Below, piece by piece: positions 491 through 12,779 of a stretch of DNA of 30,394 nucleotides. The DNA comes from a virus. The notes under the pieces are model-generated. The model was not told the origin of the DNA and ran no database searches. It saw nothing but the letters and a program-made list of their open reading frames with translations. The stretch is from the IMG/VR virus record IMGVR_UViG_3300030117_004104, positions 1 through 30,394 of that record; one strand, 5' to 3'. The position numbers and the translations under genes were made by a program. How positions within the stretch are numbered: the first letter of the stretch is position 1; each line of letters starts with the position of its first letter.

Positions 491-679
491 CTACTCATCC
501 CCCCTTTCAACTGTTTGGCCCTTGTCCCATACCTGACCATCTACGACCATTGGTCTTTTGATTAGCACGGATTTTTTATCGCCAGCGGGCTTTTCTGGAG
601 CAAAATCTGACGTGCTAACCCACTTACAGTTTGAACCTTTTGCCCTTTTAAAAATAGCAACCATTTTTTTAACACCCAT
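491..679 (-). CDS. Small hypothetical protein (62 aa)
   Basis: The ORF starts at the ATG at 679, directly after the stop codon of the upstream gene and a strong AAGGGGGAT site, and its own stop abuts the next start at 490. The product is basic at the N-terminus (GVKKMVAIFKRAKG) and ends with an acidic tail (ERGDE). I recognise no family. The tight coupling on both sides and the good ribosome binding site support that it is translated. Its centre contains two copies of the TTAGCAC/GTGCTAA core in different reading frames (562-568 and 612-618). Confidence 0.7.
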   Translation of the reverse strand: MGVKKMVAIFKRAKGSNCKWVSTSDFAPEKPAGDKKSVLIKRPMVVDGQVWDKGQTVERGDE

Positions 680-1012: not shown

Positions 1013-1372
1013 CTAGAACGGACACTCAGAAATCTCTGAGTCGTCTTCAATGTCTGCATTAACCACAACACCTATGCCGACCGTGTGTTGCTTGATGTGA
1101 ACCTCGTAGGTTACCCCCACATTAGAGTCCGCCGTAAAAGAGAACCTAGGCATCGAATTACAGATGTTAGCACGCAACTTATCTGCACAAGGCGCTATAA
1201 ATCCTTCCATCTGTCCAAGGTGGTCAACAACATTGATAACCTTGCTAATGGTGTTTACAACAACCTGTTTATCCACACTTGGCGGGTCTGCCTTTTGATG
1301 CTCAGACTCCTTAACATAGGAGATTAGCACCACAGAATATAGATTGGCTTGCGCCTTTCTTAGTTTGGCCAT
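1013..1372 (-). CDS. Hypothetical protein with SSB-like acidic C-terminal tail
   Basis: The 119-residue protein starts at the ATG at 1372, which overlaps the TAA of the upstream gene (TAATG), with GGGGGGATAG as ribosome binding site, so translation is probably coupled. I recognise no family over the main body, which looks alpha/beta with a helical middle (TISKVINVVDHLGQMEGFIA). The last residues (IEDDSEISECPF) form an acidic run ending in Pro-Phe. That resembles the tail of bacterial single-stranded DNA-binding proteins (DDDIPF type), which recruits replication and repair partners. The protein may therefore act in replication, but this rests on the tail alone and no OB-fold motif is evident. 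Confidence 0.7.
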   Translation of the reverse strand: MAKLRKAQANLYSVVLISYVKESEHQKADPPSVDKQVVVNTISKVINVVDHLGQMEGFIAPCADKLRANICNSMPRFSFTADSNVGVTYEVHIKQHTVGIGVVVNADIEDDSEISECPF

Positions 1373-2097
1373 TAAGCTATCCCCCCTTTGTCTTTTATTG
1401 CCCCGCCTAGATGCTCTTTCATAATACTCTCCATCTTTTCAGATGCATTTTTTAGCGTTTGCAACTCCTCAGGGGTTATCTCAGGGTCGACTCCCTCACT
1501 CTCTGATTTTTCTATTCTACTCATTATTCTCTCTGAATTAGCATACTCTCTTGCTAATTCAGTTTGAGTATCAACAGGGATACCTGACCCGCTCATCATT
1601 TTGAGAATCTTAGCTTTCTTTCGTGCTAATTCAGAGTCTTTAGGTTTTGTGGCCTCGTATGCTAAATCAAGCATCTTGGTCACCTCTTTAAGGGTGTTAA
1701 TATCACCATCCCTAGTTTCCATGATTTTAAATCCTAAGATACTCTCATCAAAACCTAAGCTCATCCCATCAAGAACAGGGAACAACTCATAGAGTCTTTT
1801 ATGTAATGTTAATTGGTCCATTTCCAGTTTCACCCCAACAACCTCAATCAACGACATTAATGATTTTGTTGTACGCTCGCTAGGGTTCTCCTCATCTATA
1901 ATGTCTTTGAGGTGCATCAGTGAATCAAATGCGCCCTGACTACTTAATAGCGTGGCTCTACATGTGAAGATAGTTTTATCGAAAGGCATAGGACCAACCT
2001 CTCCTAATTTAACTACCATTTTTTCTGTTTTTACTTTACCATCTTTTACGTCAAAAACTATGTCTATCGATTCTTGACCTTTGTTTTTCTTTTTCAT
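1372..2097 (-). CDS. Hypothetical helical protein (241 aa)
   Basis: The gene starts at the ATG at 2097 behind the clear site CAAGGAGAAAAACG and ends in a TAATG overlap with the next gene. The product is rich in Lys and Glu. It has an N-terminal beta-like part (SIDIVFDVKDGKVKTEKMVVKL), a long helical middle and a helical, charged C-terminus (EITPEELQTLKNASEKMESI). I recognise no family. Its message should begin at the hammerhead cleavage site about 70 bases upstream, so it may be translated from a processed mRNA with a 5'-hydroxyl end and a stem-loop leader. Confidence 0.75.
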   Translation of the reverse strand: MKKKNKGQESIDIVFDVKDGKVKTEKMVVKLGEVGPMPFDKTIFTCRATLLSSQGAFDSLMHLKDIIDEENPSERTTKSLMSLIEVVGVKLEMDQLTLHKRLYELFPVLDGMSLGFDESILGFKIMETRDGDINTLKEVTKMLDLAYEATKPKDSELARKKAKILKMMSGSGIPVDTQTELAREYANSERIMSRIEKSESEGVDPEITPEELQTLKNASEKMESIMKEHLGGAIKDKGGIA

Positions 2098-2129
2098 CGT
2101 TTTTCTCCTTGTTTTAACGATATTAATCG

Positions 2130-2210
2130 GGTTGTCTCATCAGGTGCAAGGTTCCCAACCTACACACGACCCGCACGCATCACTGCGTTCGGATTTCGAC
2201 TAGTCTAACC
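2130..2210 (-). ncRNA. Type II hammerhead ribozyme
   Basis: Read on the minus strand, every conserved core element of a hammerhead is present in order. GAAA is at 2197-2194. Stem III (2194-2169) is AUCCG/CGGGU, an A-G mismatch, ACGCA/UGCGU and a GUGA tetraloop. The cleavage-site C is at 2168, giving GUC. Stem I (2167-2144) pairs GUGUG and AGGUU with AACCU and UGCAC around a bulged U and a GGG loop. CUGAUGA follows at 2143-2137. Stem II is GUC (2200-2198) with GAC (2136-2134), extended across a 6-base bulge by GGUU (2210-2207) with AACC (2133-2130). Stems I and III are closed and stem II open, which defines type II. Cleavage is expected between 2168 and 2167. The 5' strand of stem II overlaps the last codons and stop of the upstream gene. 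Known family: self-cleaving hammerhead RNAs, type II being common in bacterial and phage DNA. Confidence 0.92.
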
Positions 2211-2568
2211 TCGCCTCTCCATGCAATATAACCACATCACCAACCAAGAAATCAACCTTGTTAACAAACTCTTCAAAGGTCCAAAATTCATCGGGGTTTG
2301 TATCTAACTGCATAAGCCTGTACCAATGCTCTGTTGCTCCCATATTCATTGGTTTGCCTTTCAGTTTGCCCTCTTCATCTACGATGATTTGAACTCTCAG
2401 GTCATCATCACTGAACGCAACCTCAATATTACCACCCACCGCACTCTGTAACTCCTCTACAGTTGGCTTTTCGTTAGCACCGCTAAGATTTGTAACCTTA
2501 GGTTCCAATATATCAAAGCTTAGCCTTGGTGGATTGATTGATGGTTTTACTCTCTTATTATTTTTCAT
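2200..2568 (-). CDS. DUF3846-like phage protein
   Basis: I place the start at the ATG at 2568 (MKNNKRVKPS), which has the site CAAGGAGAATAAAA. The open frame continues up to an ATG at 2637, but that stretch holds a hairpin and overlaps the upstream stop. The 122-residue product has a basic N-terminus. The block from VEELQSAVGGNIEV through IIVDEEGKLKGKPMNMGATEHW to VDFLVGDVVILHG matches, from memory, DUF3846 proteins (VGGYIE, NEEGKLKGLPxN and VGDVLI are their hallmarks). These small phage and plasmid proteins are of unknown function, some related to ArdA-type contexts. The 3' end of the gene runs into the hammerhead ribozyme, whose stem II includes the stop codon, so a ribosome finishing this gene would transiently disrupt that stem (inference). 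Confidence 0.75.
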   Translation of the reverse strand: MKNNKRVKPSINPPRLSFDILEPKVTNLSGANEKPTVEELQSAVGGNIEVAFSDDDLRVQIIVDEEGKLKGKPMNMGATEHWYRLMQLDTNPDEFWTFEEFVNKVDFLVGDVVILHGEARLD

Positions 2569-2586
2569 TTTTATTCTCCTTGTTTT

Positions 2587-2607
2587 AGGGGCGGTGCTAA
2601 CGCCCCT
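2587..2607 (-). promoter_or_regulatory. Intergenic mRNA hairpin upstream of a ribosome binding site
   Basis: AGGGGCG (2587-2593) and CGCCCCT (2601-2607) are perfect 7-bp arms around the loop GTGCTAA, which is part of the interspersed 8-mer. In the leftward mRNA the hairpin lies about 10 bases before the AAGGAG of the DUF3846-like gene. With no T run after it on the minus strand it is not a normal terminator for the upstream gene; it is more likely an mRNA-stabilising or translation-modulating stem-loop. Confidence 0.7.
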
Positions 2608-2617
2608 GTGTTTTTGT

Positions 2618-3691
2618 TTATTGTTTAATTGCTTCATCGATTGCTCTTGTTATTCTTTGAGCCTGCCCCATAGTACCGCCCATGCTCCAAGAGTTTTCAA
2701 CCAAGATGTCAATCCCTAGGAAACCTTTCATCTCATCACTAGTTTGTCTACAGTTTCCATTATCTTGTCTAAAGATAAAGTCTCTAGCGATAAAGGTGTA
2801 GTACCTTAAAAGTGATGGTAATCCTATTGAACCAACTCTCTCAACATCTACAGGTTCAGATGATTTCTTTAAGTCAAACACCATAGCGTTCTCATCTTGG
2901 CCTAGCTTGTTAGCAAGACACCATGAAGACATAAGAGTTACAATCTCAACACCGTATCCAAGATTTTCTAGTGCTTCCGCGGTTACGTATGCTAACGCTA
3001 CATTCTTAGCGAACGCTCCTGAGCCATTCGTCCAACTCATTGACCCGTTGACCGCTATTTTTATAACTCTCTTCTTACCGTTTCTCTTGGTGTTTACCCA
3101 ATGTTGCGGGTCACCTGTCATTATTCTATCAATGTCAAGTTCCGCGCCATCCTCAGACCATACACGCTTACGCTTTACAGATTCAAAACGCTCATTCAAC
3201 ATTTTATCAACGCCCGCTAATCTGATATCTTTTAGCGTTTTTCTGATGATTCTTCTAACTCCTGATGTTGAGCGCCCATCTTCTAAAAGTTTGTCCGTTT
3301 TGCTAGCGCAATCACTTTCTTTGGCTTTACCAAACGCCCACTCATCACCGTCCTCTACAATAGAAGAGTAATGTTTTTGCTCTCTAGCTACCCAATCCTG
3401 AGGGAGATTCTCATTTCTCCCATCCTGTAGCTTTCTTTTCTCTTCATAGGTGGCTAGTTTGTGAGAGTTAGCACTGACAAACCTGTGCATCTCATCCTGA
3501 GAAGTAAACTCAAACTTCTTCAGTAACCTGTGACCCACAAAGTGGTTCCCATAACTATGAGTGTCACCGTTGATTGTGTCCGTGATTCTAACATCAGTTC
3601 CCTCTGTTACGAAGACACTCCTGTTAGCATCAGGTGTTCCGTCCTCTTTTACCTGAGGATATGAGATATATTTTCCGTTCTGTAGTCTCAT
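2618..3691 (-). CDS. VWA-like protein, probable partner of the AAA+ ATPase
   Basis: This 357-residue protein starts at the ATG at 3691, one base after the stop of the ATPase gene, with GAGGGAG as ribosome binding site. The centre reads as a von Willebrand A-like Rossmann domain: strand RVIKIAVNGSMSW (residues 208-220), helix AFAKNVALAYVTAEALENLGY (226-246), then strand VEIVTLMS (248-255). The first metal-site motif, normally D-x-S-x-S, is N215-G-S217-M-S219, so the Asp is replaced by Asn. N-terminal residues 1-200 are charged and largely helical. MoxR/CobS-type ATPases usually sit next to a VWA protein and remodel substrates with it, and phage versions of the pair exist (VWA-like DUF7192-type proteins next to such ATPases). 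The substrate is unknown. The VWA call is pattern-based. Confidence 0.7.
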   Translation of the reverse strand: MRLQNGKYISYPQVKEDGTPDANRSVFVTEGTDVRITDTINGDTHSYGNHFVGHRLLKKFEFTSQDEMHRFVSANSHKLATYEEKRKLQDGRNENLPQDWVAREQKHYSSIVEDGDEWAFGKAKESDCASKTDKLLEDGRSTSGVRRIIRKTLKDIRLAGVDKMLNERFESVKRKRVWSEDGAELDIDRIMTGDPQHWVNTKRNGKKRVIKIAVNGSMSWTNGSGAFAKNVALAYVTAEALENLGYGVEIVTLMSSWCLANKLGQDENAMVFDLKKSSEPVDVERVGSIGLPSLLRYYTFIARDFIFRQDNGNCRQTSDEMKGFLGIDILVENSWSMGGTMGQAQRITRAIDEAIKQ

Positions 3692-3692
3692 C

Positions 3693-5120
3693 TTATACTC
3701 CCTCTGATATAGATTTAGACTCTAGGATAATATCTTTAACGCCAACCTTATTGATTTCTTCCTTGGTCCATCCTGTTGTCACGTGGTCCATAAGATATGC
3801 TACATCTTTACCGTTAGCACTGCATCGGCCCGCATCTTTAAATTTACGTGTTCCGACTATTCTATTCAGGCCATTAGATTTCACTCTTTTTCTCAACTCA
3901 TTTAGAGCGTAAATCATAGCTTTATCATCATTTGCTAACATCTTCTCTAGCTTTGTGTCATATTTCACCTCTATACCCCAAAATCTATCCAAGGTAGCGG
4001 AATCTAGCTTGTTACGCCCTGAATAAAGTGAAGACCCTTGACCTGTTCCCCATGTGTTACCCGCTCCAATCACAAAGAAATTCTCGTGACGTTTTGCGGT
4101 AGGGTTATCTTTCCTGTTTGGAACTGAGATTATACCGTTAGCAAGGGCGGAATTAATAACCACCGCTACATTAGAGTCCATAGCATCCATCTCATCTAAT
4201 AAGAAGACACCGCCATTCTCGTACAATGTCACAAACTCTGACGCTACATAATCACCATTGAACAACATTCTACCTAACAGGTGCGCTTCAGACATGCCCT
4301 CAGTACAGGATAGAAATCCGAAAGGCAATTCCATAGTTTTAGCTACTTGCTCCGCTAGCGTTGTTTTACCTGTTCCCGCATCACCACAAAGGTAAACACA
4401 TTTGTCTGCGTTTAACTGTAGTTTCTCGACTATATCCTTGAACTTAGGATGATGGTGAACGCCCTCTATTTTCTTAGCTTCTTTTATGGTGCTAACCTTA
4501 ACAGTAACATTTCCACCACCTGAACCTGAGCCTGAGCCTGAGCCTTTAGAGATTTTGTCTATCTTAGCTTTAAAAACTCTGTTCACCTCTTGTTGCTTTT
4601 TTGTTGCATCAATCATCACGTCCATCACCTGAGCCTGACCCTCAACAACTTCAGAGATTTTCAACACTCCTAGAGTATCCTGAGAGTCTTCGACCGTCCT
4701 CATGCCTTTGTCGGTCACAAACTGAACGCCATCATCAGAACTTTCATTATTATGAGGTAATTCTGATGCTAGTTCTTTCATAGCATTCTCAGGAACTTCA
4801 CGACTAGGCTCGTCGGTATTTTCAGAGTCTTGTTCTTGGTCAGAGTCACCATCCTCTTCGGTGTTATCACTGTTAGCACCGCCATTTCCATCATCAGAGT
4901 CATTATCCTCAGGTATTGAGTTAGAGATGTATATGTCCTCTCTCTCTATAATTGTTGGATAATCACTATAATTGATTGAGCCGTTTTCTATCACGTTATC
5001 ACACTGTTCAGAATTTAAATTTCTGATAACTTTGCTCCTCGATGATACTGAGCCAACCTCTTTGATTTCACCTGTGTTGATTAGGTGGGTTATTTGTCTT
5101 CTTTTTTCAACTGTTTTCAT
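3693..5120 (-). CDS. MoxR/CobS-type AAA+ ATPase
   Basis: The 475-residue protein starts at the ATG at 5120 with the site AAGGAGAAACAAA and is first in the leftward operon. Residues 70-110 are very acidic (Asp, Glu, Asn, Ser), and residues 193-203 are a Gly-Ser linker. The AAA+ domain follows: Walker A GDAGTGKTT (246-254), Walker B VFLLDE (305-310), sensor 1 GAGNTWG (352-358) and a likely arginine finger in DRF (Arg379). The pattern GRMLFNGDY...ENGGVFLLDEMD is typical of the CobS/MoxR group, which act as ring-shaped chaperones with a VWA partner. The next gene encodes such a protein, which supports the call. Phage members are common but the remodelled target is unknown. The acidic arm before the linker is probably disordered and may bind a partner. 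Confidence 0.9.
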   Translation of the reverse strand: MKTVEKRRQITHLINTGEIKEVGSVSSRSKVIRNLNSEQCDNVIENGSINYSDYPTIIEREDIYISNSIPEDNDSDDGNGGANSDNTEEDGDSDQEQDSENTDEPSREVPENAMKELASELPHNNESSDDGVQFVTDKGMRTVEDSQDTLGVLKISEVVEGQAQVMDVMIDATKKQQEVNRVFKAKIDKISKGSGSGSGSGGGNVTVKVSTIKEAKKIEGVHHHPKFKDIVEKLQLNADKCVYLCGDAGTGKTTLAEQVAKTMELPFGFLSCTEGMSEAHLLGRMLFNGDYVASEFVTLYENGGVFLLDEMDAMDSNVAVVINSALANGIISVPNRKDNPTAKRHENFFVIGAGNTWGTGQGSSLYSGRNKLDSATLDRFWGIEVKYDTKLEKMLANDDKAMIYALNELRKRVKSNGLNRIVGTRKFKDAGRCSANGKDVAYLMDHVTTGWTKEEINKVGVKDIILESKSISEGV

Positions 5121-11762: not shown

Positions 11763-12779
11763 ATGGCTGAAGTACAATGGAACTCGGGTCTTGAGGTATC
11801 AAGATGGTCGAAAGAATTGTTCACCGAAGCAAAAAACGATACATATTTTTCTCGTTTTTTCGGTGGTTCTAGTTCTGCGATTCACGTCTTAAATGACCTG
11901 AAGGCTGCAAAAGGAAAAGACATTACTATAGGTCTTAAAATGAAGATTGATGGTGGTGGAGTTACAGGTGACAGCACACTTGCTGGTAACGAAGTGACAA
12001 TTGACACTTACACACAAACAATAACGCTAGACCAATTAAGACAAGGTGTTTTATCTAAAGGTAAAATGCACAACAAAAAAGTTTTAATTGATTTTCGTAA
12101 AGAAGCTCTAGATTCATTAAAAATCTGGTTTGCTGAAACTATGGAGCAAGATATGATTGACACTTTATCAGGTGCCACATCTGATGCGTCTGGTGTTGCA
12201 ACTTATGCGTTTGGTACAGACTGTACATACGCAGTATGGAATGATGGTGGTACAATTAAGCAAACTACACCAGCAGGTTCATTAGCTACTGCTGACATAC
12301 TAACACCAAAAACAATTAGTTTTATGGCTGCAAGAGCTAAACTAATTGACCCTAAAATGCGTCCAATCAGAGTTGGCGGAAAAGACTATTATGTTCTTAT
12401 CGTTCACCCTGAAACTGCTAGAGAGTTAAAAAATGACTCTACATGGCAAAACGCACAACAATACGCAATGCCAAGAGGTGGAGATAATCCTCTATTTACA
12501 GGTGCATTAGGTATGTGGGATGGTGTAGTAGTACACGAGCATGATGGAATCCAAAAAATGACAGTTAACTCAGTTAATGCTAATAGAAACTTATTCTTAG
12601 GCGCACAAGCTGGTTTAGTTGCATTTGGTGGTGACCACTCATGGCACGAAGAAACAGTTGACAGAGGTAATAAGTTGAGTGTATCAGCAAGCATTATCTA
12701 TGAAATGGCGAAGTCTAAATTTAACAGTAAAGACTTTGGTGTTATAGAAAATGTAGCCGCTGCTACAAGTATGACTTAA
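11763..12779 (+). CDS. Major capsid protein, N4-gp56 family
   Basis: This 338-residue HK97-fold protein follows AAAAGGAG. The block DITIGLKMKIDGGGVTGDST (residues 54-73) with LAGNE, then QTITLDQLRQGV, KVLIDFRKEALDSLKIWFAETM and KDYYVLIVHPETARELK is the signature order of the N4-gp56 (DUF4043) capsid family. There is no long N-terminal delta domain; the separate scaffold gene provides that role. It should form the icosahedral shell with the portal and the decoration protein. A 36-bp palindrome follows the stop codon. Confidence 0.92.
   Translation: MAEVQWNSGLEVSRWSKELFTEAKNDTYFSRFFGGSSSAIHVLNDLKAAKGKDITIGLKMKIDGGGVTGDSTLAGNEVTIDTYTQTITLDQLRQGVLSKGKMHNKKVLIDFRKEALDSLKIWFAETMEQDMIDTLSGATSDASGVATYAFGTDCTYAVWNDGGTIKQTTPAGSLATADILTPKTISFMAARAKLIDPKMRPIRVGGKDYYVLIVHPETARELKNDSTWQNAQQYAMPRGGDNPLFTGALGMWDGVVVHEHDGIQKMTVNSVNANRNLFLGAQAGLVAFGGDHSWHEETVDRGNKLSVSASIIYEMAKSKFNSKDFGVIENVAAATSMT

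Follow-up and report, generated by a model that had tools for sequence, protein, structure and literature searches.

A candidate divergent type II hammerhead ribozyme at a gene junction of a leftward phage operon

The window, 30,394 nucleotides of viral DNA from an IMG/VR record, carries a leftward phage operon with a compact RNA motif in the gap between two of its genes. The question that this locus raises is whether the motif is a ribozyme, and what it would do to a transcript that runs through it. The reading proposed here, which we hold to be very probable, makes the motif an authentic though divergent type II hammerhead, with its cut in the leftward transcript falling between C2168 and G2167. 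The literature already covers type II hammerheads, how common they are in bacteria and phages, their intergenic placement and the idea that they process transcripts (Perreault et al. 2011, PMC3088659; PMC6155905). The initial annotation of this DNA was right that the class is not new (PMC3088659), and its suggestion that the location might be new does not hold, since intergenic locations in phages are already on record (PMC3088659). What is new is the element itself, a divergent member of the class that is invisible to Rfam.

The leftward operon and the anatomy of the element

The operon comprises five genes, and its sole sizeable gap holds the element. This gap is 102 nt long, as first annotated, with one gene ending at 2200 and the next starting at 2097; the remaining junctions overlap or are 1 nt apart. 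The opposite strand of the window encodes a terminase and a P22-type portal. No relative of the portal among named phages reaches 60% identity, and no DNA similarity of the window to named phages was found. The features of the operon around the element are as follows.

5120-3693, minus strand: gene for a CobS-like AAA+ ATPase (PHROG 249, Pfam AAA_5)
3691-2618, minus strand: gene for a DUF7192 protein (open reading frame and family match)
2200-2637, minus strand: upstream gene, encoding a DUF3846 protein of 145 aa with stop codon TAG at 2202-2200 (Pfam PF12957, E 2.4e-8; PHROG 3777)
2105-2110, minus strand: Shine-Dalgarno sequence AAGGAG of the downstream gene, 7 nt ahead of the ATG at 2097 (sequence)
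1372-2097, minus strand: downstream gene, encoding a 241-aa protein with no family match (open reading frame; N-terminal part 33% identical to its counterpart in the relative L001, described below)
1372-1013, minus strand: gene for a 119-aa protein (open reading frame)

The CobS-like AAA+ ATPase gene lies directly beside the DUF7192 gene (2618-5120, minus strand), and the pair may resemble the pairing of MoxR/CobS with VWA/CobT proteins.

Read from the sequence, the type II hammerhead core is complete on the minus strand at 2200-2128, as GUC-GAAA-UCCG-AA-CGCA-GUGA-UGCG-UG-CGGG-UC-GUGUG-U-AGGUU-GGG-AACCU-UGCAC-CUGAUGA-GAC-AACCCG. The order is that of a stem II 5' strand, GAAA, a closed stem III, a GUC triplet, a closed stem I, CUGAUGA and a stem II 3' strand, so that stems I and III are closed by loops and stem II is open, which is the type II layout. 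The hammerhead core of CUGANGA, GAAA and an NUH triplet is present as CUGAUGA, GAAA and GUC in the window, and as CUGAUGA, GAAA and AUA in L001. The parts of the element are listed below.

2198-2200, minus strand: stem II 5' strand GUC, its G being the last base of the stop codon (sequence; GUU in L001 still pairs)
2194-2197, minus strand: core GAAA, comprising G12, A13, A14 and A15.1 (sequence; invariant in L001; matched by model R1)
2169-2194, minus strand: stem III hairpin, consisting of A-U, UCCG/CGGG, an AA/UG internal loop, CGCA/UGCG and a GUGA tetraloop (sequence and comparison with L001)
2170-2168, minus strand: cleavage triplet GUC (sequence; L001 has AUA, likewise NUH)
2167-2168, minus strand: predicted cleavage site, after C2168 (sequence and hammerhead chemistry)
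2144-2167, minus strand: stem I hairpin GUGUG-U-AGGUU-GGG-AACCU-UGCAC (sequence; two compensatory changes at its base in L001)
2137-2143, minus strand: core CUGAUGA (sequence; invariant in L001; matched by model R1)
2134-2136, minus strand: stem II 3' strand GAC (sequence)
2128-2133, minus strand: 3' tail AACCCG, of which CCCG (2131-2128) may pair with the loop I sequence UGGG (2157-2154)

The initial annotation had described the core as free of deviation and placed the cut at 2168/2167. All core bases do agree with the hammerhead, and the site predicted here falls at the same position. Its stem II stands in part: the GUC/GAC pairing is supported, but the proposed GGUU/AACC extension becomes GGCU/AACC in L001, is not kept there, and was dropped. 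AACCC is more likely a 3' tail that pairs with loop I than an extension of stem II. The stop codon had also been placed within stem II, and this applies to the G of TAG (2202-2200) only, the other two bases being outside.

Pairing of loop I with a tail 3' of stem II is a pseudoknot found in the majority of type II hammerheads (PMC3088659). The corresponding pairing in the window would be UGGG/CCCG, with only four pairs, one of them G-U, and L001 has UGGG/CCCA. The GGG/CCC register, extended by U-G (U-A in L001), is the same as that of GGCU/AGCC in other phage type II elements, and a short pseudoknot of four pairs is plausible in the window. Among the matches listed, at least four Watson-Crick pairs between the stem I interior and the tail occur in 76 of 116 phage elements, as against 26 of 116 on average, and 38 at most, when the tails are shuffled, which agrees with the published pseudoknot (PMC3088659).

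The phage type II elements of the loci L161-L280 seem to fall into two subclasses. The first combines a stem I hairpin of 17 nt with a stem II of 4 bp and shows little pairing in the pseudoknot; the second has a stem I of 22-24 nt, a stem II that is mostly 3 bp long, and a pseudoknot.

Covariance models and the stop codon upstream

Rfam gives no hammerhead match to the window at its gathering thresholds, nor do its hammerhead families in the 251 nt around the element at E up to 10. A direct search with RF02276 (Hammerhead_II), which has a gathering score of 37 bits, also gave no match. Running this model on the minus strand had been put forward as a check in the initial annotation, and the outcome is negative even at permissive settings. 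Elsewhere Rfam detects a type I hammerhead (locus L126) and, in further phage contigs, type II elements, so the search tool works.

A pattern search for type II hammerheads yielded at least 120 phage contigs, on which a scanner for stems and core found at least 125 elements, a few being duplicates. A covariance model, R1, was made from 33 of these elements, with the window and L001 both excluded. In a search of 139 kb (the window, the L001 contig and other loci), R1 has a single match in the window, at 33.6 bits and a rough E-value, the calibration being short, of 9.5e-8. The L001 contig scores 32.7 bits, and the next match in the 139 kb after these two has an E-value of 0.25. With filters off over 1800-2600, the E-value of the window match is 5.4e-10, and R1 also recovers the published element of phage Bcep176 (E 4.4e-5). 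Among the matches listed, the window element is near the bottom of 140 R1 matches, and stem III of the window and L001 opens with U-G or U-A, compared with C-G in 111 of 116 scanned elements. The low rank, this opening pair and the internal loop make the element a divergent member of its class. Since R1 does find it, the failure of Rfam is attributed to the divergent stem III and tail. On nine of the phage contigs where Rfam does detect type II elements, Rfam marks 21 places and R1 marks 43 (some of these being R1 training elements), and Rfam misses about half of comparable phage elements. Divergent type II hammerheads are therefore under-counted, as the public model misses members like that of the window.

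The stop codon of the upstream gene ends 2 nt ahead of GAAA. The initial annotation had regarded a coupling to the stop codon as possibly new at this locus; the adjacency proves instead to be a rule among phage type II hammerheads. The rule was examined in 114 distinct phage type II elements among the matches listed, excluding the window and L001, with open reading frames of at least 60 aa. Such a frame ends near the element in 94 of them, and in 81 (71%, or 86% where a frame could be called) the upstream stop codon ends 0-12 nt before GAAA, the distance being 0-3 nt in 31. The same spacing is found at 3% of random same-strand positions (138/4560) and on the opposite strand in 2 of 114 cases. 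When one element is taken per contig, 58 of 68 obey the rule, and so do 94 of 115 in a set defined by R1, where the mode is -2, the window's own value (both among the matches listed). Start codons, from calls that are simple and approximate, lie mostly 20-35 nt after CUGANGA and have a Shine-Dalgarno sequence in 94 of 113 cases among the matches listed. At junctions with at least 15 spare nucleotides, the majority of these lie downstream of the element in 28 of 34 (among the matches listed), indicating that the elements keep closer to the stop codon than to the start codon. The layout of the window matches that of more than 110 phage elements, with the stop at most 12 nt upstream and a start typically 20-35 nt downstream, usually with a Shine-Dalgarno sequence.

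The stop-codon rule is absent from the main text of PMC3088659, and no other report of it appeared in the open-access literature searched; the strength of this anchoring across phages seems not to be on record. The role of prokaryotic hammerheads has been called an open question (PMC6155905). The rule that a phage type II ribozyme begins close behind the upstream stop codon and finishes shortly ahead of the next ribosome-binding site turns a vague idea of RNA processing into a testable one, and offers a handle on what such ribozymes do.

It is conceivable, if on balance unlikely, that phage type II hammerheads, including that of the window, are a form of punctuation anchored at stop codons, which ties them to the end of the upstream cistron, caps each cistron with a hairpin and couples cutting to the termination of translation. 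A main role in translation gating is also unlikely for an active ribozyme at this locus. Here a ribosome terminating at 2202-2200 would cover GAAA and the start of stem III, and cutting would occur only when no ribosome finishes the upstream gene. The stop codon does lie inside the expected ribosome footprint, and both the general spacing of at most 12 nt and the downstream position of the spare bases at 28 of the 34 junctions (among the matches listed) would fit such gating, but genome compactness explains short spacing on both sides, and the start-codon calls are approximate.

The phage contigs L188, L237, L166, L189, L232 and L265 each carry 4 to 10 type II hammerheads, located at successive same-strand gene junctions. 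For 140 elements (L161-L240 and others, among the matches listed), mean identity of the stem III 5' arms is 0.50 within a contig and 0.39 between contigs, a result obtained in 0 of 2000 label shuffles. This suggests that, within one phage genome, the ribozyme has been copied from one junction to others.

The relative L001 and the case for a catalytic element

The L001 contig was reached via its DUF3846 protein and is the only independent relative found. It has the same gene order (AAA, DUF7192, DUF3846, the element and a homologue of the 241-aa protein), and the proteins are 65, 54, 61 and 33% identical, respectively, to those of the window. The gap at the same gene boundary is 103 nt, compared with 102 nt in the window. 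The initial annotation had suggested looking for the element at this boundary in related phages, and L001 has it there with its core unchanged, next to proteins that retain 33-65% identity; this answers the refuting case it had named, of relatives that keep the flanking genes but lose the core bases. Searches of IMG/VR for relatives of the 241-aa, AAA and DUF7192 proteins returned the L001 contig only, or none, and DUF3846 relatives in GTDB genomes were not found. Among the DUF3846 loci run through the scanner, only L001 and L126 carried a hammerhead, that of L126 being type I. The 15-mer pattern AACGCAGTGATGCGT gave mostly chance matches, and the pattern GAACCTTGCNNCTGATGAGAC gave the L001 contig and two chance matches, L122 and L123. 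By luck the 15-mer brought in L013, which has a type I hammerhead (579-627, plus strand; RF00163 30.5 bits, cut-off 34) between tRNA genes of a phage array of at least 11 tRNAs.

A MAFFT alignment of the window and L001 elements misplaces the base of stem III, and pairs were therefore counted from an explicit layout. Of the pair changes, three are compensatory on both sides and four are consistent but one-sided; in addition, one pair is inserted and one is broken. Stem II changes from C-G to U-G. In lower stem III, which covaries and reads UACUG/CAGUA in L001, U-G becomes U-A, one A-U pair is inserted, and C-G becomes U-A on both sides. At the base of stem I, G-C to U-A and U-A to A-U are two-sided changes and U-G to C-G is one-sided. 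The remaining one-sided change is in the tail-loop pairing (U-G to U-A in L001), and the broken pair is in upper stem I (U-A to C/A). The core bases, upper stem III and the tip of stem I show no difference, and the cleavage triplet changes from GUC to AUA. All three helices are kept, with compensatory change. The R1 match, together with these changes around an unchanged core, supports the type II call that had been made from the window alone.

It is distinctly improbable that the element is a conserved hammerhead-like hairpin structure that is no longer catalytic and simply stabilizes mRNA between the genes. The hammerhead fold, at -21.2 kcal/mol with the pseudoknot excluded, is not the predicted minimum of -23.7 kcal/mol, which would be in keeping with such a structure, as would the negative Rfam result and the inactivity in vitro of some hammerheads that conform to the consensus: of 18 tested, 14 cleaved and 4 were inactive (PMC3088659). 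The folding stability is not unusual (z -1.2). Plain hairpins have no need of a hammerhead core, however, and in L001 GAAA and CUGAUGA are unchanged where stems and proteins have changed, and the altered triplet there still obeys the NUH rule. An intrinsic transcription terminator or attenuator is very improbable. Two adjacent hairpins do lie in the intergenic gap, but they are joined by an exact hammerhead core, and neither a T-run terminator-like site nor a promoter-like site was found in 1900-2400. Finally, hammerheads are simple motifs that arise by chance in large databases (PMC3088659), but in 1500 dinucleotide-preserving shuffles of the whole window only 2 type II motifs had stems of at least this length, before the conserved place, the L001 covariation and the R1 match are counted, and the compensatory changes in L001 refute chance assembly for practical purposes.

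Proposed working and comparison with known hammerheads

If the element is an active type II hammerhead, one cut at 2168/2167 would separate the leftward transcript into an mRNA for the CobS-like AAA+ ATPase, DUF7192 and DUF3846 proteins and another for the 241-aa and 119-aa proteins. The upstream mRNA, its stop codon intact, would run on for 32 nt past that codon and finish in the stem III hairpin with a 2',3'-cyclic phosphate. On the other side of the cut, the downstream mRNA would begin 70 nt ahead of its start codon, with a 5'-hydroxyl and the stem I hairpin. Held only by the weak 3-bp stem II after cutting, the two halves should part easily. Type II is alone among the three hammerhead layouts in giving both new ends a closed hairpin, and this would explain its use at gene junctions. 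The hairpins may set the stability of the two mRNAs, and the role of the element would be to give separate lifetimes to mRNAs made as one. Activity in cells is plausible by analogy with a tandem hammerhead cluster from Agrobacterium, which was cleaved on transcription in E. coli, and with a halovirus transcript whose end lies within three nucleotides of a hammerhead site (PMC3088659).

The element shares with Rfam type II, RF02276 (PMC3088659), the order of its parts, the core bases, a short stem II, loops that close stems I and III, a tail that may pair with loop I, and an intergenic position in phage genomes. It differs in being unmatched by that model, in a stem III that starts with U-G or U-A rather than C-G, in the AA/UG internal loop and in its candidate pseudoknot of the GGG/CCC type.

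The hammerhead of phage Bcep176 (PMC3088659; L289, 12169-12242) likewise starts just past a stop codon, 3 nt beyond that of annotated gp32 (which ends at 12165), is matched by R1 and, as aligned to that model, has the permuted layout with an open stem II. Unlike the window element, it has a variant core (A6C) with a rate below 0.1 per min (PMC3088659), and the annotated gene that follows lies on the opposite strand.

The type I hammerhead of L126 (514-566, plus strand; RF00163, 40.4 bits) lies in the gap that separates a DnaJ-like gene from a further DUF3846 gene. Like the element of the window it is intergenic in a phage and adjoins a DUF3846 gene, and the upstream stop codon TGA is inside its CUGAAGA. 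It differs in its type I layout, in being visible to Rfam and in lying upstream of the DUF3846 gene, whereas the element of the window lies downstream.
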